Below, piece after piece: positions 1 to 22,406 of a DNA stretch of 64,000 nt (positions within the stretch are counted from its first letter, which is position 1; every line of letters starts with the position of its first letter). This DNA comes from Flavivirga aquatica. Its GTDB lineage: Bacteria; Bacteroidota; Bacteroidia; Flavobacteriales; Flavobacteriaceae. The notes beneath the pieces are model-generated. The model was not told the origin of the DNA, did not search any database, and was given only the letters and a program-made list of their open reading frames with translations. Location: the NCBI RefSeq assembly GCF_001747085.1, contig NZ_MDJD01000054.1, forward strand, positions 806,001 to 870,000, written 5' to 3'. Position numbers and translations under genes: made by a program.

Positions 1-786
1 AAATATAGTAGTAAAAATGTTTGATGATTCTAGTTTTATAAATGACCCAGTAGCTATTAACATTATAGGAACTATTATTGGCAAAAGGTCAAATAAAACA
101 TTCCCTGAATTTGATTTACCTAAAGAGAGTTCATCAGTTTCTTTTAATGAATCTTTAAGTTTCTCATCATAATTGAGCCATGAGTTTTTTAAAAAGAATA
201 TCACCCAAAAAACACCTCCCATCATAGCAAAAACAGCTACAATTATATTAATAAGTAACATTCTTCCAATATCAAGATTTAATAATTCTGCTACTGCTAA
301 TGGTCCTGGAGTTGGAGGTATTAAAGTATGAGAAACCGTTAAACCTGCAGCTAAAGCCAATCCTATATATAATACTGGCTTTTTGCTTTTAACTGCTAAA
401 GACTCTGTAACAGGTTGCAATAAAATATACGCAACATCAATAAAAACAGGAATAGACACTATATAGCCTGTTAGCCCCATAGCCCAAGGAAGCTTTTTTT
501 TACCCACTCCCTTTACAATGCTATTAGATATACGAAAGGCTCCTCCTGTATCTTGCAAAACTTCACCTATAAAGGCTCCTATTATAATAATTATAGCAAT
601 ACCTTTCAAGGTACCACTAAAACCTTTCAATACAACATCTACAGTTTCCTTTCCTCCAAAGCCAAATGACAAACCTAAAGCTATAGCTATTAGAATTAAA
701 GCTATAAATGGATGTACTTTCCATTTAGATATTGCAAAAATTAAAAACAAAAGGAAGAATAATAAAATCGAAAGGCTTAGAAACAT
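1..786 (-). CDS. GntP-family gluconate/sugar-acid:H+ symporter (3' end outside window)
   Basis: My translation of the minus strand from the ATG at 786 is open for 262 codons to the window edge, so the C-terminus is missing. It is very hydrophobic, with many membrane segments separated by short loops. The first ~100 residues include a run like FSGTLKGIAIIIIIGAFIG and later VSHTLIPPTPGPLAVAELL, which I recognise as the GntP/gluconate permease signature (TPP/PxPGP region). These inner-membrane carriers import gluconate and related sugar acids with protons. It starts 41 bp after the sulfatase at 828-2204 on the same strand, so the two are probably cotranscribed, suggesting import of an acidic sugar released from a sulfated glycan. 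The exact substrate cannot be read from sequence. Confidence 0.88.
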   Translation of the reverse strand, partial: MFLSLSILLFFLLFLIFAISKWKVHPFIALILIAIALGLSFGFGGKETVDVVLKGFSGTLKGIAIIIIIGAFIGEVLQDTGGAFRISNSIVKGVGKKKLPWAMGLTGYIVSIPVFIDVAYILLQPVTESLAVKSKKPVLYIGLALAAGLTVSHTLIPPTPGPLAVAELLNLDIGRMLLINIIVAVFAMMGGVFWVIFFLKNSWLNYDEKLKDSLKETDELSLGKSNSGNVLFDLLPIIVPIMLIATGSFIKLESSNIFTTIF

Positions 787-15381: not shown

Positions 15382-15413
15382 TTTGTATAATTATATTTTC
15401 ATCTTTATATTTG
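15382..15413 (+). promoter_or_regulatory. Bacteroidota-type promoter of the trp operon
   Basis: TTTG at 15382-15385 (-33 box), a 20-bp spacer, then TATATTTG at 15406-15413, an exact TAnnTTTG -7 box. This is the known primary-sigma consensus of Bacteroidota. Transcription would start near 15420, about 10 nt before the leader peptide start. Confidence 0.88.
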
Positions 15414-15430
15414 AACACATAATTAAAGAA

Positions 15431-15493
15431 ATGAAATTAAATTTAAATAATACTTGGTGGTGGTGCTTTTCAAACTTAACTTTTGTGAAGTAG
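15431..15493 (+). CDS. trpL: Trp leader peptide (attenuation control peptide)
   Basis: A 20-codon frame, MKLNLNNTWWWCFSNLTFVK then TAG, begins about 10 nt after the predicted transcription start. Three consecutive Trp codons occupy 15455-15463. It lies 100 bp before trpE and is followed by an intrinsic terminator, the arrangement of ribosome-mediated attenuation. When charged tRNA-Trp is scarce the ribosome should stall on the Trp codons and let an antiterminator form (see 15453-15556). There is no Shine-Dalgarno, as usual in this phylum. The peptide itself probably has no other function. Confidence 0.9.
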   Translation: MKLNLNNTWWWCFSNLTFVK

Positions 15494-15556
15494 AAACCTA
15501 GTATATTTAAAACTCAAATATCATAAGGCTTGTCATTCACGACAAGCCTTTTTTTT
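15453..15556 (+). promoter_or_regulatory. Trp attenuator: competing stem-loops and terminator
   Basis: Terminator: AAGGCTTGTC (15525-15534), 6-nt loop, GACAAGCCTT (15541-15550), running into eight Ts ending at 15556. Competing antiterminator: AACCT at 15495-15499 with AGGcTT at 15526-15531, extended by ATATTT (15503-15508) with AAATAT (15516-15521); it consumes the terminator's 5' arm. A pause hairpin can pair CTTGGT (15453-15458, in the Trp codons) with ACCTAG (15496-15501) and CTTTTCA with TGTGAAG. A ribosome held at 15455-15463 would break the pause hairpin and free 15495-15508 for antitermination. Pairings were found by eye. Confidence 0.85.
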
Positions 15557-15594
15557 AATAAAAAATTGAAATACTGAAAATAAATTCAGCATAA

Positions 15595-16998
15595 ATGAAA
15601 ACATATAATTTATTTACCCATTACAAAAGAATTTTAACTGATACCATTACCCCAGTAACGGTATACTATAAAATACGCGATAAATATCCCAACAGTATTC
15701 TTTTAGAAAGTGGCGATTATCATAGAAATCACAAGAATTTCTCGTACATCTGCTTTAACCCAATCGCATCCATTAAAGTAGAAAACGAAACAATTTCTCA
15801 AACTTTTCCAGATGGGAGTTCAACTAATATAGAAATCACTGGAGATGTTAATGTAGCAGCAGAAATTAATAAATTCACAAAACGATTTGACGTCACTTCC
15901 GAAGAAAACTTCAAATTTATAAACAACGGTATTTTTGGCTATACCGCATACGATGCCGTACGCTATTTTGAAGATGTAGAAATCACCAAAAAAGAAGATT
16001 CCCTTACCATTCCAGATGCATATTATGCTGTTTATCAAAACATCATAGCCATCAATCATTTTAAAAATGAAGCCTATATTTTTGCGCACTGTTACGATAC
16101 AGAAAATAATATAGATGCTATAGATGAGCTTATAAACGTTCAAAATTTCTCATCATACAACTTTAATTCAAAAGGAGAGATAACATCAAACCTTACCGAT
16201 AACGAGTTTAAAGAACACGTAGAATTAGCAAAAAAACACTGCGCTCGCGGAGACGTTTTTCAACTCGTACTCTCAAAAAGTTTTGCACAAGAATTTACAG
16301 GAGACGATTTTAATGTATACAGAGCCTTAAGAAGTATAAACCCATCACCATACTTGTTCTATTTCGATTATGGCGATTTCAAAATTTTTGGAAGCTCACC
16401 AGAAGCCCAACTTATTGTAACCGATGGATTAGCAGAAATCCACCCCATAGCCGGAACATTTAAACGCACAGGAGACGAAGAAAAAGATGAAGCATTGGCC
16501 GAAGCCCTAAAATTAGACGACAAAGAAAATGCCGAACACGTCATGCTAGTCGATTTAGCACGAAACGATTTAAGCAGACACGGCAGTCAAGTAAACGTAG
16601 AAACCTATCGCGAAGTCCAGTTTTTCTCACACGTTATTCACCTAGTAAGTAAAGTAACTGGGCAAAAACACGAAGACACATCTACCATGCAAGTTGTAGC
16701 AGATACATTCCCCGCAGGAACATTAAGTGGCGCACCAAAACACAGAGCCATGCAACTTATAGAACAATACGAAAAAACAAGTCGCTCATTTTACGGCGGA
16801 GCTATTGGGTTTATGGATTTCAATGGTAATTTTAACCATGCCATCATGATTAGAACCTTTTTAAGTAAAGACCATAAATTAAATTGGCAAGCCGGAGCCG
16901 GGTTAGTCTCAAAATCTAATCCAGATAGCGAATTACAAGAAGTATATAACAAATTAGGCGCATTAACCAAAGCTATTAAATTAGCCGAAGACATATAA
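15595..16998 (+). CDS. trpE: Anthranilate synthase component I
   Basis: A 467-residue cytoplasmic enzyme that makes anthranilate from chorismate and ammonia, the first step of tryptophan synthesis. The N-terminal region has SILLESGDY, matching the LLES motif that binds feedback-inhibiting Trp. The chorismate-binding half shows PSPYLFYFDYGDF, GSSPEAQL, HPIAGTFKRTGDEEKDE, LDDKENAEHVMLVDLARND and AGTLSGAPKHRAM plus FYGGAIGFM, all family signatures; PIAGT distinguishes it from a plain isochorismate synthase. The ammonia comes from TrpG encoded next. First structural gene after the attenuator. Confidence 0.97.
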   Translation: MKTYNLFTHYKRILTDTITPVTVYYKIRDKYPNSILLESGDYHRNHKNFSYICFNPIASIKVENETISQTFPDGSSTNIEITGDVNVAAEINKFTKRFDVTSEENFKFINNGIFGYTAYDAVRYFEDVEITKKEDSLTIPDAYYAVYQNIIAINHFKNEAYIFAHCYDTENNIDAIDELINVQNFSSYNFNSKGEITSNLTDNEFKEHVELAKKHCARGDVFQLVLSKSFAQEFTGDDFNVYRALRSINPSPYLFYFDYGDFKIFGSSPEAQLIVTDGLAEIHPIAGTFKRTGDEEKDEALAEALKLDDKENAEHVMLVDLARNDLSRHGSQVNVETYREVQFFSHVIHLVSKVTGQKHEDTSTMQVVADTFPAGTLSGAPKHRAMQLIEQYEKTSRSFYGGAIGFMDFNGNFNHAIMIRTFLSKDHKLNWQAGAGLVSKSNPDSELQEVYNKLGALTKAIKLAEDI

Positions 16999-17167: not shown

Positions 17168-17734
17168 ATGAAAAAAATATTAGTTATAGACAATTACGAC
17201 AGTTTTACATACAATCTAGTACATTACTTAGAAGACCTAAACTGTGATGTCACCGTAGTAAGAAACGATAAACTAACACTAGAAGACGTTCAACCCTTCG
17301 ATAAAATAGTATTATCCCCAGGACCAGGAATTCCAGACGAAGCAGGTCTACTAAAACCTATCATAAAAAAATACGCACCAACAAAAAGTATTTTAGGCGT
17401 GTGTTTAGGGCAACAAGCCATAGGAGAGGTATTTGGAGGCTCACTAGTAAATTTAGACGAAGTATACCACGGCGTAGCTACCAAAGTAGAAATATGCGTT
17501 GATGACGAAACGCTATTTACTGGCTTAGATAAAAATATCGAAGTAGGGCGCTACCACTCATGGGTAGTAAACGCAAATCTTCCAGAAAGTTTAGAAGCCA
17601 CATCTTTAGATGAAAACGGACAAATCATGTCATTAAGACATAAAGAATACGATGTAAAAGGCGTACAATACCACCCAGAATCTGTATTGACACCACACGG
17701 AAAACAAATTTTAGAAAATTGGATTAATAATTAA
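17168..17734 (+). CDS. trpG: Anthranilate synthase component II (glutamine amidotransferase)
   Basis: A 188-residue class I glutamine amidotransferase: IDNYDSFTYNLVHYL at the N-terminus, LSPGPGIPDEAG (oxyanion region), GVCLGQQAIGEVFGG with nucleophile Cys, and VQYHPESVLTPHG with the His-Glu pair of the catalytic triad. It hydrolyses glutamine and channels ammonia to TrpE. The 169-bp gap after trpE is long for this operon and is filled by a repeat element. No fusion to trpD, unlike enterobacteria. Confidence 0.97.
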   Translation: MKKILVIDNYDSFTYNLVHYLEDLNCDVTVVRNDKLTLEDVQPFDKIVLSPGPGIPDEAGLLKPIIKKYAPTKSILGVCLGQQAIGEVFGGSLVNLDEVYHGVATKVEICVDDETLFTGLDKNIEVGRYHSWVVNANLPESLEATSLDENGQIMSLRHKEYDVKGVQYHPESVLTPHGKQILENWINN

Positions 17735-17795: not shown

Positions 17796-18788
17796 ATGAA
17801 AGACGTACTAAACAGACTAATAAATCACGAAACCCTCTCAAGCGAGGAGGCAAAACAGGTTATATTTAACATATCCAATGACATATATAACCCTAGTCAA
17901 ATAACATGCTTCCTATCTGTTTTTATGATGCGAAGTATTACAGTAAAAGAATTAAAAGGATTTAGAGATGCTCTTTTAGAACTTTGTATACCTATAGACT
18001 TGAGCAATTTTAACGCTATAGACATTGTTGGTACAGGAGGTGATGGCAAAAACACATTCAATATCTCTACCTTATCATCCTTTATAACCGCAGGCGCAGG
18101 AGTTAATGTTTCCAAGCATGGTAATTATGGCGTATCATCAACTTCTGGCTCTTCAAATGTTATGGAACATTTAGGTGTAAAATTCTCCAATAATCAAGAT
18201 TTTTTAAAACGCTGTTTAGACAATGCTGGAATATGTATATTACATGCTCCATTATTTCATCCAGCTATGAAAAACGTGGCACCTATAAGAAAAGAACTAG
18301 GTATAAAAACCTTTTTTAATATATTAGGACCTTTGGTTAACCCTTCATTTCCAAAAAATCAACTGTTAGGTGTTTTTAGTTTAGAACTTTTACGCCTGTA
18401 TAGTTTTTTATATCAAAACACAGATAAGAACTATAATATTGTTTATGCTTTAGATGGTTACGATGAAATTTCATTAACAGGAAAAGCAAAAATTATTTCT
18501 AATCATTCAGAAAAACTTTTTTCTCCAGAAGACTTAGGAGTAACTAAAATTAAGCAAGAGTCTATTTTTGGAGGAAACACCATTAAAGATGCAGCAAAAA
18601 TATTTGTAGACATTATTAGCGGTAAAGGCACAGAAGCTCAAAACAATGTTGTTTGCGCTAATGCAGGTTTAGCCATTGCTACAACAAAACAAATAAACCA
18701 CAAACAAGGATTCGAAATAGCAAAAGAATCTTTACTATCAGGAAAAGCAAAAACCAGTTTAGATAAATTAATTGAATTAAGTAAATAG
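17796..18788 (+). CDS. trpD: Anthranilate phosphoribosyltransferase
   Basis: A 330-residue enzyme transferring phosphoribose from PRPP to anthranilate. Motifs: DIVGTGGDGKNTFNIST (PRPP pyrophosphate-binding GTGGD), VSKHGNYGVSSTSGSSNVME (anthranilate and ribose site), HPAMKNVAPIRKELGIKTFFN (conserved Arg), ILGPLVNP and YALDGYDEISLTG. The N-terminal helical domain is normal. Length is typical. Third structural gene; a 61-bp gap follows trpG. Confidence 0.96.
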   Translation: MKDVLNRLINHETLSSEEAKQVIFNISNDIYNPSQITCFLSVFMMRSITVKELKGFRDALLELCIPIDLSNFNAIDIVGTGGDGKNTFNISTLSSFITAGAGVNVSKHGNYGVSSTSGSSNVMEHLGVKFSNNQDFLKRCLDNAGICILHAPLFHPAMKNVAPIRKELGIKTFFNILGPLVNPSFPKNQLLGVFSLELLRLYSFLYQNTDKNYNIVYALDGYDEISLTGKAKIISNHSEKLFSPEDLGVTKIKQESIFGGNTIKDAAKIFVDIISGKGTEAQNNVVCANAGLAIATTKQINHKQGFEIAKESLLSGKAKTSLDKLIELSK

Positions 18789-18834
18789 AATTACTAGTTA
18801 CAACATTCCATTAATAGTGATTATTGAAATAAAA

Positions 18835-19620
18835 ATGAACATACTAGATAAAATAGTAATAGATAAAAGAAAAGAAGTTACACTTCGTAAAAACCTCATT
18901 CCTATAAAACAATTAGAACAATCTGTTTTATTCGAAAGAGAAACCGTTTCATTAGCAAATAATTTAAGAAACAGTAAATCTGGAATTATAGCAGAACACA
19001 AACGTAGGTCACCCTCAAAATCTGTTATCAATAACACATTAAACGTCCAAGATGTAGCAAGCGGTTACGAAAATGCAGGCGTATGCGGCATGTCTGTACT
19101 AACCGATGGAAAATACTTTGGAGGCTCGTTAGACGATTTATTAACAGCCAGAGCAAGTTGTAACCTACCTTTATTACGTAAAGAGTTTATTATAGATCAA
19201 TATCAGCTTTTAGAAGCTAAAGCCTACGGAGCAGACGTTATCTTATTAATAGCAGCTATTCTAACCAAAGCAGAGATAAAACAATTTTCGGAATTTGCAA
19301 AAAATCTAAAATTAGATGTTTTATTAGAAGTACATAACGAAGAAGAATTGCATAAATCTATTATGCCAAGTTTAGATATGTTAGGCGTTAATAATAGAAA
19401 CTTAAAAACCTTCGATGTTAGCTTAGAAACCAGCAAAACATTAAGTCAACTTATCCCAGACGATTTTGTAAAAGTATCAGAAAGCGGCATTAGCAACATA
19501 GAAGCCATAAAAGAACTACAACCCTACGGATATCAAGGTTTTTTAATAGGTGAAAACTTTATGAAAACAGATAACCCAGGACAAAGCGCTACCCAATTCA
19601 TTAAAAATTTAGAACCATGA
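18835..19620 (+). CDS. trpC: Indole-3-glycerol-phosphate synthase
   Basis: I prefer ATG 18835 (MNILDKIVIDKRKEV), the usual N-terminus; an in-frame ATG six codons upstream is less likely. The 261-residue TIM barrel shows SGIIAEHKRRSPSK (catalytic Lys), VLTDGKYFGGSLDDL, LPLLRKEFIID (catalytic Lys), LDVLLEVHNEEEL (Glu), LGVNNRNLKTF and VSESGIS. It closes the indole ring from carboxyphenylamino-deoxyribulose phosphate. Its stop overlaps the trpF start (ATGA at 19617-19620), implying translational coupling. It is separate from trpF, unlike the E. coli fusion. Confidence 0.97.
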   Translation: MNILDKIVIDKRKEVTLRKNLIPIKQLEQSVLFERETVSLANNLRNSKSGIIAEHKRRSPSKSVINNTLNVQDVASGYENAGVCGMSVLTDGKYFGGSLDDLLTARASCNLPLLRKEFIIDQYQLLEAKAYGADVILLIAAILTKAEIKQFSEFAKNLKLDVLLEVHNEEELHKSIMPSLDMLGVNNRNLKTFDVSLETSKTLSQLIPDDFVKVSESGISNIEAIKELQPYGYQGFLIGENFMKTDNPGQSATQFIKNLEP

Positions 19621-20264
19621 AACTCAAGGTTTGCGGTATGAAATATCAAGATAACATGGCTCAGGTTGCAGCATTGCAACCAGACTATCTTGGCTTTATT
19701 TTTTATAAAAAATCATCCAGACATTTTGATACAATTATTCCCAAAATACCAGAAACTATAAAAAAGACAGGCGTTTTTGTAAATGAAGACTTAAATACTG
19801 TTTTAGAAAAAATAAATACGCATCATTTACAAGCTGTTCAATTACATGGAGAAGAAACTCCAGAATATTGCAAAGATTTACACAAAGCATATCAATCTGA
19901 GCACAACCAAAAGCTAGAAATTATAAAAGTATTTTCAATAAAAGACGAATTTAATTTTGAGGTTTTAAAACCTTATGAAAATGTGTGCGATTATTACTTA
20001 TTTGACACAAAAGGAATGCTACCAGGAGGAAACGGTTACACCTTCGACTGGAATGTACTAAACAAGTACCCTTCAACCAAACCCTTCTTTTTAAGTGGCG
20101 GCATAGGTATTAACCAAATAGAAGATATAAAAAAATTTCAGCAAAGCAAAGCTTCAAAATACTGTTATGCTTTAGATGTAAATAGTAAGTTTGAAATTGA
20201 ACCAGGATTAAAAAATATAGACGAATTACAAAAGTTTAAAGAAACTTTGTCATTCCGTATTTAA
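19617..20264 (+). CDS. trpF: Phosphoribosylanthranilate isomerase
   Basis: A 215-residue TIM-barrel enzyme: KLKVCGMKYQDN with the catalytic Cys, LGFIFYKKSSR, KTGVFVNEDL, AVQLHGEE, DYYLFDTKGMLPGGNGYTFDW (catalytic Asp) and PFFLSGGIG. It overlaps trpC by 4 bp. Oddity: the last residues (LSFRI) and the stop codon lie inside a palindromic repeat that starts at 20248, so the original C-terminus was probably replaced when the element inserted or expanded. All visible catalytic motifs are upstream of this, so function is likely kept. Confidence 0.96.
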   Translation: MKLKVCGMKYQDNMAQVAALQPDYLGFIFYKKSSRHFDTIIPKIPETIKKTGVFVNEDLNTVLEKINTHHLQAVQLHGEETPEYCKDLHKAYQSEHNQKLEIIKVFSIKDEFNFEVLKPYENVCDYYLFDTKGMLPGGNGYTFDWNVLNKYPSTKPFFLSGGIGINQIEDIKKFQQSKASKYCYALDVNSKFEIEPGLKNIDELQKFKETLSFRI

Positions 20265-20327
20265 TACGGAATCCATTATAAATTATAACTAAAATAAAAC
20301 AGATTCCTGCCTTTGCAGGAATGACAA
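20248..20327. repeat. MITE-like element with 10-bp terminal inverted repeats at the trpF-trpB junction
   Basis: It begins TTGTCATTCC and ends GGAATGACAA, a perfect 10-bp terminal inverted repeat over 80 bp. Two internal hairpins: ATTCCGTATT/AATACGGAAT (20252-20272) and ATTCCTGC/GCAGGAAT (20303-20322). The left end encodes the last five codons and stop of trpF, and the right end contains an ATG at 20321 in frame with trpB. Sequences of this type are, to my memory, widespread intergenic repeats in Flavobacteriaceae. Confidence 0.78.
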
Positions 20328-20332
20328 AAAAC

Positions 20333-21517
20333 ATGGAAAATTATAACGTAAACGAAAAAGGCTACTACGGCGAATTTGGAGGAGCTTATATTCCAGAAAT
20401 GCTTTATCCAAACGTAGAAGAGTTACGCCAAAACTATTTAAAAATTATGGCAGAACCAGGCTTTCAAAAAGAGTTTAACCAATTATTAAAAGATTATGTA
20501 GGTCGCCCTTCTCCCCTTTATTTTGCTAAGCGTCTTTCAGAAAAATATAATACCAAAATCTATTTAAAACGCGAAGATTTAAATCATACAGGCGCACATA
20601 AAATAAACAATACCATAGGACAAATACTTATGGCTAAACGTTTAGGTAAACACCGCATTATTGCCGAAACAGGTGCAGGACAACACGGTGTTGCCACAGC
20701 AACTGTTTGTGCTTTAATGGGGCTTGAATGTATTGTTTATATGGGTGAAATAGACATTACAAGGCAAGCACCAAACGTAGCCAGAATGAAAATGTTAGGA
20801 GCCAAAGTTGTTCCAGCATTATCTGGTAGTAGAACATTAAAAGACGCCACTAACGAAGCTATTAGAGATTGGATTAACAATCCCGTAAATACACACTATA
20901 TTATAGGTTCTGCCATAGGGCCTCATCCTTATCCAGATATGGTAACCAAATTTCAATCCGTAATATCTGCAGAAATAAAATGGCAATTAAAAGAACATGA
21001 AGGACGAGAAAATCCAGATTACGTTGTTGCTTGTATAGGCGGTGGCAGTAATGCTGCTGGTACTTATTACCACTATTTACATGAAGAAGAAGTAGGTATT
21101 ATTGCAGTAGAAGCTGCTGGTTTAGGTGTAAATTCTGGAGAAAGCGCAGCAACATCTGTTCTTGGAAAAGAAGGTGTTATTCACGGGTGTAAAACACTAT
21201 TAATGCAAACTCAAGACGGGCAAATAACAGAACCTTATTCTATTTCTGCAGGTTTAGATTATCCTGGAGTTGGTCCTATGCATGCACATTTATGTAAAAC
21301 AGGGCGCGCAGAATTCATTTCAATAAAAGATGATGAAGCTATGACTGCTGGTTTAGACCTTTGTAAATTAGAAGGTATTATTCCAGCTATAGAAAGTTCT
21401 CATGCTCTTGCCATTTTCGAACAAAGAGCCTTTAAACCAGAAGACGTTGTTGTAGTAAGTTTATCTGGTCGTGGCGATAAAGATTTGCAAAATTATATTG
21501 AATATTTCAAAATTTAA
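20333..21517 (+). CDS. trpB: Tryptophan synthase beta subunit
   Basis: I choose ATG 20333 ([17 protein letters not shown], 394 residues). The in-frame ATG at 20321 lies inside the palindromic repeat at 20248-20327, so it looks accidental. PLP-dependent fold: [14 protein letters not shown] with the Schiff-base Lys, [29 protein letters not shown] (phosphate-binding GGGSN), [14 protein letters not shown] and [12 protein letters not shown]. It condenses indole with serine. Partner of TrpA encoded next. Confidence 0.97.
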
Positions 21518-21641
21518 TTCCATTTTTTTCATTTCCGCGAAAGCGAAAAATAGAATTATGAATAAAAAGAAATCTTTTTCGAAATATACTTAACAATAAA
21601 AAATTCTCTCTTTAGAGGGGATGAAAAATTTATTTTTCAAA
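21518..21641. repeat. Palindromic repeat remnants in the trpB-trpA gap
   Basis: Two hairpin-forming stretches. One is near 21516-21557: AATTCCAT.., a core TTCCGCGAAAGCGAAA (CGC/GCG stem), then ..ATAGAATT. The other is near 21604-21622: TCTCTCTTTAGAGGGGA. The second provides an ATG (21621) in frame with trpA that is probably not the real start. No gene here. Confidence 0.5.
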
Positions 21642-22406
21642 ATGAACAGAATACATCAAAAATTACAAGAAAATAAAAAGTTACTTTCCATATACTTCAC
21701 AGCAGGCTATCCTACTATTAACGACACCGTTTCAATTATTCAAGATTTAGAAAAAAACGGAGTAGATATGATAGAAATAGGCTTACCTTTTAGTGATCCA
21801 TTAGCAGATGGTCCAACTATACAAGCCAGCTCAACACAAGCCTTAAAAAATGGTATGACTACAGAGGTACTTTTTGACCAACTTAAAGACATTAGAAAAT
21901 CTGTAAACATCCCTTTAATTATTATGGGATATTTTAACCCTATGTTACAATATGGTGTTGAAGCTTTTTGTAAAAAATGCCAAGAAATAGGTATAGATGG
22001 ATTAATAATACCTGATTTACCTGTAGATGAATATCATGATGAGTATAAAGCTATTTTTGACAAATATGGCCTTATAAACGTTTTCTTAATAACACCTCAA
22101 ACCTCTGTAGAACGTATTAATTTTATAGATTCTATATCTAACGGATTTATTTATATGGTTAGTAGTGCCAGTGTAACAGGAAGTCAGTCTGGTTTTGGCG
22201 ATGAGCAAACCAACTACTTTAAACGTATTGCCGACATGAACCTTAAAAATCCGCAAGTAATTGGTTTTGGTATTTCAGATAATAAAACATTTACGCAAGC
22301 TACAAATTATGCTAAAGGTGCTATTATTGGTAGTGCTTTTATTAAGCATGTAACTAATGAGGGGATAAATACTATTAATACATTTGTAAAATCTATTTTA
22401 GAATAA
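21642..22406 (+). CDS. trpA: Tryptophan synthase alpha subunit
   Basis: Start chosen at ATG 21642 (MNRIHQKLQENKKLLSIYF, 254 residues); an ATG seven codons upstream abuts a repeat hairpin. TIM barrel with catalytic Glu in DMIEIGLPFSDPLADGPTIQ (Glu and Asp conserved), DGLIIPDLPVDE, GFIYMVSSASVTGSQSG and VIGFGISDN. It cleaves indole-3-glycerol phosphate and passes indole to TrpB. Last biosynthetic gene of the operon; a DUF805 gene follows 5 bp later. Confidence 0.97.
   Translation: MNRIHQKLQENKKLLSIYFTAGYPTINDTVSIIQDLEKNGVDMIEIGLPFSDPLADGPTIQASSTQALKNGMTTEVLFDQLKDIRKSVNIPLIIMGYFNPMLQYGVEAFCKKCQEIGIDGLIIPDLPVDEYHDEYKAIFDKYGLINVFLITPQTSVERINFIDSISNGFIYMVSSASVTGSQSGFGDEQTNYFKRIADMNLKNPQVIGFGISDNKTFTQATNYAKGAIIGSAFIKHVTNEGINTINTFVKSILE

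Follow-up and report, generated by a model that had tools for sequence, protein, structure and literature searches.

The window examined here, a 64,000-nucleotide (64 kb) stretch of the Flavivirga aquatica genome, carries a tryptophan operon in the order trpE-G-D-C-F-B-A behind a short leader region (Table 1). The first gene was assigned as trpE through a match to TIGR00564 of 427 bits, which is below that model's curated cut-off of 518. As the gene upstream of the leader is divergent, a gene-end terminator is unexpected at this position, and attenuation is the most sensible role of the intrinsic terminator found there. A preliminary description of this DNA had reported a perfect 10-bp terminator; indeed all 10 of the 10 stem pairs form, and the T-run that follows ends 38 nt before trpE. 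The leader as a whole (15420-15562) folds at -35.9 kcal/mol, compared with -18.6 in shuffled sequences (z -5.8). The sequence TGGTGGTGG occurs once in the window, and one is also present in 9 of 100 shuffles. Two other RNA models, RprA and GibS, were considered at the leader and rejected, the scores (25.9 against a gathering threshold of 70, and 24.6 against 115) reflecting terminator-like similarity only.

Table 1. Features of the trp leader and operon (window positions; the last two rows lie in other genomes)
Feature	Position	Strand	Remarks
-33-type promoter box TTTG	15382..15385	+	read from sequence
-7 box TATATTTG	15406..15413	+	read from sequence; predicted start site about 15418
Leader peptide ORF	15431..15493	+	20 codons, stop TAG 15491-15493
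Segment A	15442..15458	+	pairs with 15496-15511 without ribosome; minimum-energy fold
Hairpin H	15464..15492	+	15464-15474 with 15482-15492; hides segment E without ribosome; minimum-energy fold
Segment E (outer antiterminator strand, end of leader ORF)	15483..15489	+	pairs with 15536-15542
Segment B (inner antiterminator strand)	15494..15508	+	partner 15516-15531, or A; fold of 15473-15545
Segment C (partner of B)	15516..15531	+	overlaps terminator 5' arm
Intrinsic terminator	15525..15556	+	stem 15525-15534/15541-15550, loop 15535-15540, U-tract to 15556
Segment E' (partner of E)	15536..15542	+	terminator loop and first 2 nt of 3' arm
trpE	15595..16998	+	first gene of operon; TIGR00564, E 8.4e-128
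trpG	17168-17734	+	
trpD	17796-18788	+	
trpC	18817-19620	+	
trpF	19617-20264	+	
trpB	20321-21517	+	
trpA	21621-22406	+	
L211	1407-1526	-	R1 hit, Lys-rich leader, before lysC
L216	1488-1616	-	R1 hit, Lys-rich leader, before lysC

The leader ORF, which is presumably translated, encodes the 20-residue peptide MKLNLNNTWWWCFSNLTFVK and, as had been described, contains three adjacent Trp codons (TGG), at 15455-15463. The -33 and -7 boxes named in the preliminary description are likewise present, TTTG being separated from TATATTTG by 20 nt. As stand-alone evidence the window's boxes were rejected, since the pattern has 2 matches in the window against 3.9 expected by chance. The promoter is supported instead by its conservation in relatives: 156 of 161 loci, including that of the window, carry the full TANNTTTG at 20-95 nt before the first Trp codon (shuffles, mean 16). 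A TTTG-like box (at least 3 of 4 positions matching) precedes the -7 box by 17-23 nt in 154 of the 161, and the spacing is 19-20 nt in 131 of the 156 whose -7 box is full. In Flavobacterium psychrophilum the -7 box has been mapped at -12 to -5 (PMC9723704), which by analogy would put the window's transcription start site near 15418 and give a 5' UTR of about 13 nt. Thus, the short leader of the preliminary description stands, while the distance of about 10 nt given there is replaced by a somewhat longer predicted one; that description was also correct that there is no Shine-Dalgarno sequence, nothing resembling AGGAGG being seen in 15418-15430.

The locus belongs to RF01692 (Bacteroid-trp) and is therefore of a known kind rather than a new one. 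RF01692 was the sole Rfam match at gathering within the 64 kb window, where covariance models for the T-box and other Rfam-listed cis-regulators gave none at that threshold; it scored 54.2 bits against a gathering value of 49, and the alignment (window 15411-15534) spans the full model (positions 1-131), with ten positions marked as outside standard pairs. The locus has the Trp-codon leader (WWW) and the downstream tryptophan genes (trpE at 15595) that characterize the family, while a Bacteroidota host would be in keeping with the type of promoter and with the finding that 141 of 199 genomes in the bacterial family have an RF01692 match. Bacteroid-trp, the Bacteroidete tryptophan peptide leader RNA, was published in 2010 (Weinberg et al., PMC2864571, Table 1), and in 2021 leader-peptide attenuation was inferred upstream of amino-acid operons in F. 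psychrophilum (PMC9723704), so that the novelty implied by the preliminary description is not borne out. In a limited search of open-licence PubMed Central literature we saw no Bacteroidota work on trp attenuation beyond these two papers. The window shares with RF01692 the downstream trpE, the Trp-codon leader and the conserved AAGGCUUGUC, and the long hairpin of the model can be aligned to it with the exceptions to standard pairing just given. The Rfam model differs, however, in stopping at the terminator 5' arm (15534); lacking the loop and 3' arm, and hence segment E', it cannot show the pairing of E with E' described below. At its other end, model positions 1-3 correspond to window 15411-15413; the model thus covers the end of the -7 box and the spacer ahead of the predicted start site, and some of its sequence is promoter rather than RNA.

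Among Flavobacteriaceae, sampled as one genome per genus, RF01692 matches with an E value of 0.001 or better occur in the 141 genomes mentioned above (123 over the cut-off), and a trpE-like gene is present at 140 of the 141 loci; in genomes drawn from the phylum the figure is 46 of 392. The preliminary description had stated that loss of the WWW peptide and the terminator from orthologous regions would count against an attenuator. No such loss was encountered: WWW is found in 137 of the 141 family loci, the other four having two Trp codons, and a script detected a perfect terminator in 139. The leader is 15, 18 or 20 residues long in 116 of 141 family loci, and in 145 of 161 loci the first W is preceded by eight residues. 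Covariation in the family's trpE upstream regions, which had been suggested as a check, is evident in the terminator and also in E:E' (see below): in 100 relatives 99.7% of terminator stem cells are paired, and 8 of the 10 pairs have changed on both sides (45 cells). The stem AAGGCUUGUC/GACAAGCCUU (window 15525-15550) is nearly fixed across genera, perhaps beyond what hairpin stability needs; E:E' would explain the conservation of the GAC end, not that of the AAGGCUU part.

Of the 58 family genomes without an RF01692 match, trpC was found in 44. A second model, R1, was built from 100 divergent members with the terminator as its sole structure. R1 scored at least 44.7 bits in 38 of these 58 genomes, with a trp gene just downstream in 35 (the exceptions being L201, L211 and L216); added to the 141 RF01692 loci, these 35 place the trp element in about 176 of the 199 family genomes. 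Only R1 matches of 44.7 bits or more were counted, because of what was seen among secondary matches (about 34-44 bits): of 20 inspected out of those listed, L299 alone has a WWW leader, and inspection by eye revealed none in the other 19, several of which are ordinary terminators at the ends of genes. The second R1 match in the window's own genome, at 33.9 bits, stands behind a gene judged by eye to be thioredoxin-like.

The part of the element that appears to be new, found by comparing sequences, is a pairing at the stop codon of the leader ORF; the kind of attenuator itself was already known. In the window E is complementary to E' over 7 bp, one of them G-U. In relatives E is typically GUCGUGA or UCGUGAA, and its match to the loop and the adjoining 3'-arm bases of the terminator was first noticed by eye. 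An E:E' helix of at least 6 bp is present in 148 of 159 loci, including the window (shuffles, mean 21 and maximum 33), and falls below 6 bp in the remaining 11; in 143 of the 159 it starts 15-22 nt past the last Trp codon, compared with 5.6 in shuffles. (The 159-locus set leaves out L036, at a contig end, and L089, with an imperfect stem, in which the script found no terminator.) On 100 divergent rows 86.0% of E:E' cells are paired, against 19-53% in slid controls. Both sides have changed in 22 cells, a value reached in 0 of 500 shuffles (4.9 on average), and 5 of the 8 pairs show such changes (2.6 in shuffles; 1 of 500 as high); the control slid by +3 likewise has 5 pairs changed on both sides, though in just 7 cells. 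In the alignment of 159 rows, 95-99% of cells are paired at each of the six core positions of E:E', and 43% and 62% at its two end pairs; A:B, B:C and H are 69-70% paired (A:B 69%, H 70%), the pairs of B:C ranging over 57-77%.

On a TrpE tree with 153 tips, compensatory change is seen on 2 branches at one E:E' pair, where 0.05 are expected, and one pair of H has 7 compensatory but 14 pair-breaking branches. A scan of 6594 column pairs on this tree brought out the terminator and one E:E' pair among the well-paired columns; AT-rich columns with poor pairing also ranked high in several cases, and by itself the scan would therefore have been no proof of E:E'. Covariation of A:B and B:C in the scan and the 159-row alignment was not convincing and was set aside, and support for A:B is comparatively weak. 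Independent covariation events are few in E:E' because most of the variation in E is that of one conserved motif. Variant helices nevertheless occur, as in L102 (UGUCGCAAU:AUUGCGACA) and L139 (UCGUAAA:UUUACGA).

It should be emphasized that the shuffle, row-count and tree tests used the sequences in which the pattern had been noticed, whereas the held-out loci are others. R1 found 81 further loci, 75 of them with a trp gene downstream. The held-out set comprises the 79 that have Trp codons; L211 and L216, which have none, were left out, and L281, which has no trp gene and is a probable false hit, was kept. The true E' partner beat the mean of 30 mismatched partners in 69 of the 79 loci and failed to do so in 10 (Wilcoxon 2.6e-11, a value that ignores kinship). 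E:E' recurs in other families with unrelated sequences, such as ACCGGAU:AUCCGGU in L289, GGGAUGA:UCAUCCC in L272, GAACAGC:GCUGUUC in L274 and AUGUGGC:GCCACAU in L262, and in these four the helix starts 14-18 nt past the Trp codons despite the unlike sequences. R1 holds the E consensus as sequence and its hits thus favour a canonical E, which makes the 49 loci that lack CGTGA and have a trp gene the fairer test; here the true partner beat the mean mismatch in 42, and 41 helices start 13-22 nt past the Trp codons, the mean shuffle p being 0.17; kinship is ignored in this comparison as well.

A conserved motif at the end of an ORF might equally reflect the peptide, TCGTGA being retained as the coding sequence of a peptide end that acts in nascent-chain stalling or release rather than in RNA pairing. 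CGTGA is present at the E position in 140 of 159 loci and often includes the stop, overlapping TGA in 79 of the 140. It is also found in the two other frames (31 and 2 loci), however, and wholly 3' of the stop in 28, which indicates that it is kept as RNA and not as peptide, and the partner E' changes along with the E motif. We thus consider an explanation through the peptide extremely unlikely.

The best-scoring helix places E' in the loop and 3' arm in 146 of the 159 loci and 47 of the 79 held-out loci, and in the 5' arm and loop in 11 and 25, respectively. In five loci from other families of the class (L242, L250, L252, L253 and L254) a post-Trp segment of the GGCAACC type would pair with the terminator 5' arm; the topology of these five would be the textbook one, and the class would thus hold both.

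The competition between these helices was explored by folding the 153 of 159 loci that have an E:E' helix of at least 5 bp, with bases under the ribosome made unpairable and the RNA ending at points along the terminator 3' arm; the ribosome was assumed to cover 12 nt past the A-site codon, and the stalled state was set at the second W. With 4-5 nt of the 3' arm exposed, the stalled state gave P(E:E') of 0.95 and P(terminator) of at most 0.01. A stop-bound ribosome, which excludes E:E' by construction, gave 0.01 and 0.91-0.97, and RNA without a ribosome 0.19-0.27 and 0.54-0.71. For the window P(E:E') was 0.95-0.99 when stalled, and P(terminator) 0.97-0.99 with the ribosome at the stop or absent. 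Of seven loci viewed individually, two, L102 and L139, show E:E' even when no ribosome is present (0.98-1.0 at 3-6 nt), folds that go against the simple model. The antiterminator fold of the window (15473-15545) has -11.1 kcal/mol (z -1.8), and 11 of 200 shuffles are as stable. When 7 nt or more of the 3' arm are exposed, the terminator wins in the window even in the stalled state, so by the model the decision must be kinetic; we infer such kinetics for the switch.

It might be proposed that the locus is a classical attenuator of the Escherichia coli type, in which B:C is the antiterminator through sequestering the base of the 5' arm, and E:E' is incidental. B:C does exist in the window, where it is the same pairing as the antiterminator of the preliminary description, and the minority of loci whose E pairs best with the 5' arm and loop come nearer to the textbook design. 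Furthermore, blocking the B stretch in the stalled window restores the terminator (0.94-0.99), so B:C contributes, although the same block yields a P(terminator) of only 0.05-0.11 on average. Once E is forced unpaired in the stalled state with 4-5 nt exposed, however, B:C alone fails against the terminator, P(terminator) being 0.73-0.85 on average and 0.96-0.99 in the window. By the model, the window thus needs both helices, whereas the average relative needs chiefly E:E'. The core of E:E' is also better paired in relatives than B:C, and it covaries. We therefore regard the classical design as unlikely for this locus; the preliminary description was right that the antiterminator shares the terminator's 5' arm and missed its other half, which takes the loop and 3' arm.

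E:E' could alternatively be a pseudoknot in which the leader strand binds the loop of the formed terminator hairpin, strengthening termination instead of preventing it. The loop belongs to E' in the window, and for longer loops pairing with the stem closed is possible; in some relatives, however, the loop has four nucleotides (TCAC) and can hardly pair while the stem is closed, and in the 146 loci noted above E' extends into the 3' arm. Such a pseudoknot would, moreover, be disrupted by a stop-bound ribosome in the very state where termination is wanted, and E:E' and B:C are nested, not knotted. A terminator-strengthening pseudoknot is thus very unlikely. Since E:E' encloses B:C, the two form one nested antiterminator, and it is probably the E:E' pairing that operates the switch.

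Taken together, the locus, which belongs to RF01692, most probably attenuates transcription of the trp operon in a ribosome-mediated manner, with an antiterminator composed of E:E' and B:C. Its anatomy, its conservation, the covariation of the terminator and E:E', and the equilibrium folds are established by computation, and the ribosome-mediated trp attenuation proposed in the preliminary description, well supported by anatomy, conservation and modelling (all computational), is very likely. In the mechanism we propose, translation of the 20-codon leader would start close to the mRNA 5' end. When Trp-tRNA is scarce, the ribosome would stall on the W codons, covering A and opening hairpin H, which would leave E and B free. 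B would then pair with C, while E, enclosing B:C, would capture E' in the loop and adjoining 3' arm; this would block nucleation of the terminator and let the polymerase read into trpE. When Trp-tRNA is ample, the ribosome would reach the stop codon and cover E, and the terminator would form; without a ribosome, A:B and H would hide B and E, with the same outcome. Read-through would thus be expected to depend on tryptophan. At the moment when RNA polymerase transcribes the U-tract, roughly the loop and the earliest bases of the 3' arm should have emerged from the enzyme. These are just what E would capture, an argument that draws on the general footprint of the polymerase.

The trpL leader of E. 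coli is described by a model of alternative 1:2, 2:3 and 3:4 pairings, in which strand 2 resembles strand 4 and both pair with the terminator 5' arm (strand 3). Like such trpL-type attenuators, the locus has, between promoter and operon, a small ORF in which cognate codons stand in tandem, and then an intrinsic terminator; in the folding models its antiterminator excludes the terminator and is hidden by a stop-bound ribosome, the hiding following from the assumed footprint. As in E. coli, a stall would free the antiterminator strand, a ribosome at the stop would hide the same strand, and the lack of a ribosome would lead to termination. In contrast with trpL, the antiterminator strand does not pair mainly with the 5' arm, of which B:C takes only part; both in the window and more widely (146 of 159 loci), E has the loop and 3' arm as its partner, and the 5' leader is shorter and has no Shine-Dalgarno sequence. 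The folding models thus suggest an element that works like a trpL-type attenuator and differs from it in topology. The leader-peptide attenuators of F. psychrophilum share the proposed mechanism, and section 19 of that report gives neither their structure nor an E:E' pairing; conserved 5' elements before pheA and hisG are described there as having no Rfam hits (PMC9723704). No E:E' pairing was seen in the limited search of open-licence PubMed Central literature.

The remark in the preliminary description that the very short 5' leader deserves attention was apt, many relatives having predicted leaders of 0-2 nt. The distance from box to start codon is bimodal in the 156 loci whose -7 box is full, with maxima at 5 nt and 17-19 nt; it is 6 nt or less in 33 (a predicted 5' UTR of 0-2 nt), 8 nt or less in 51 and 13-23 nt in 82. 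Seventeen changes on the TrpE tree (n 150) are required to account for distances of 8 nt or less (shuffled mean 43), and likewise 17 for those of 6 nt or less (shuffled mean 30). Leaderless mRNAs are rare in F. psychrophilum, at 5.5% of mapped mRNAs (PMC9723704), and about 3.7% of 5' UTRs in Bacteroides thetaiotaomicron are shorter than 10 nt (PMC7366714). In Sinorhizobium meliloti the trp leader ORF, trpL, is leaderless (PMC7298713), a trp attenuator that, similarly, begins its leader ORF at the mRNA 5' end; the near-leaderless form reported here differs in being predicted from promoter spacing and in belonging to part of the relatives, the window having about 13 nt. The near-leaderless starts suggest selection on the position of the start codon. 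S. meliloti belongs to another phylum.

With a short 5' leader and no Shine-Dalgarno sequence, the leader ORF might be translated inefficiently, in which case the terminator would be mostly constitutive and trp control would lie elsewhere. Such a view is in keeping with the fold without a ribosome, which favours the terminator. The start codon, the WWW and their register (eight residues before the first W) are, however, conserved across genera, and the predicted near-leaderless starts point to selection on where the start codon lies. A largely untranslated leader is accordingly very improbable, and ribosome-mediated control remains the preferred reading.

More broadly, we are inclined, on balance, to see here a design of the Bacteroidota's own, in which a segment at the stop codon binds the loop and the emerging 3' arm of the terminator instead of its 5' arm, in phase with the RNA that has just left the polymerase, often with a near-leaderless ORF that has no Shine-Dalgarno sequence, and whose target has changed to lysine (lysC) in a few lineages, of which at least two seem to lack trpC. 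Ribosome-mediated attenuation works only if the ribosome stays close behind the polymerase. A conserved attenuator with predicted leaders of 0-2 nt in about one-fifth of loci, in bacteria that do not use Shine-Dalgarno sequences, would be a natural reporter for this coupling, and equally for leaderless-type initiation in Bacteroidota. E:E' offers exact single and double mutants with which to probe how the switch operates, a model that includes the terminator half absent from Rfam recovered 35 further trp leaders in RF01692-negative genomes, and the switch of topology within one class (5' arm against loop and 3' arm) could be traced.

The lysine version of the scaffold was met in two genera in which trpC was not found (genomes 88% and 82% complete), where R1 hits of 68.8 and 73.9 bits precede lysC (L211 and L216; Table 1). 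The lysC product, of 438 aa, passes the threshold of TIGR00657, an aspartate kinase model; its best match, below cut-off, is lysine-sensitive aspartokinase 3. The putative leaders, NKKDKKVHLRRTS and KQKDKKIYLRRMS, have Lys codons in place of the Trp codons and are followed by GUCGUGA and the same terminator. L317, in a second genome of one of these genera, has a similar arrangement, with KKGKKQHIP before lysC, and no Lys leader with terminator was seen by eye before the other 15 lysC orthologues listed. As the genomes are only three and the start codons of the Lys leaders in L211 and L216 would not be ATG, we treat as a lead only the apparent occurrence, in three genomes of two genera, of a scaffold before lysC that is similar to the trp attenuator and carries Lys codons.

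Two further loci carry WWW leaders in genomes without a trpC match. At L201 (1501-1616, minus strand; genome 86% complete) the WWW leader and terminator are present and a downstream trp gene was not found, the leader being either a relic or a free-standing terminated leader RNA. At L299 (about 198-350, plus strand) a 26-codon WWW leader is followed by a differently built terminator and then by a TrpB-like gene, named by eye, an arrangement that suggests Trp control of indole salvage.
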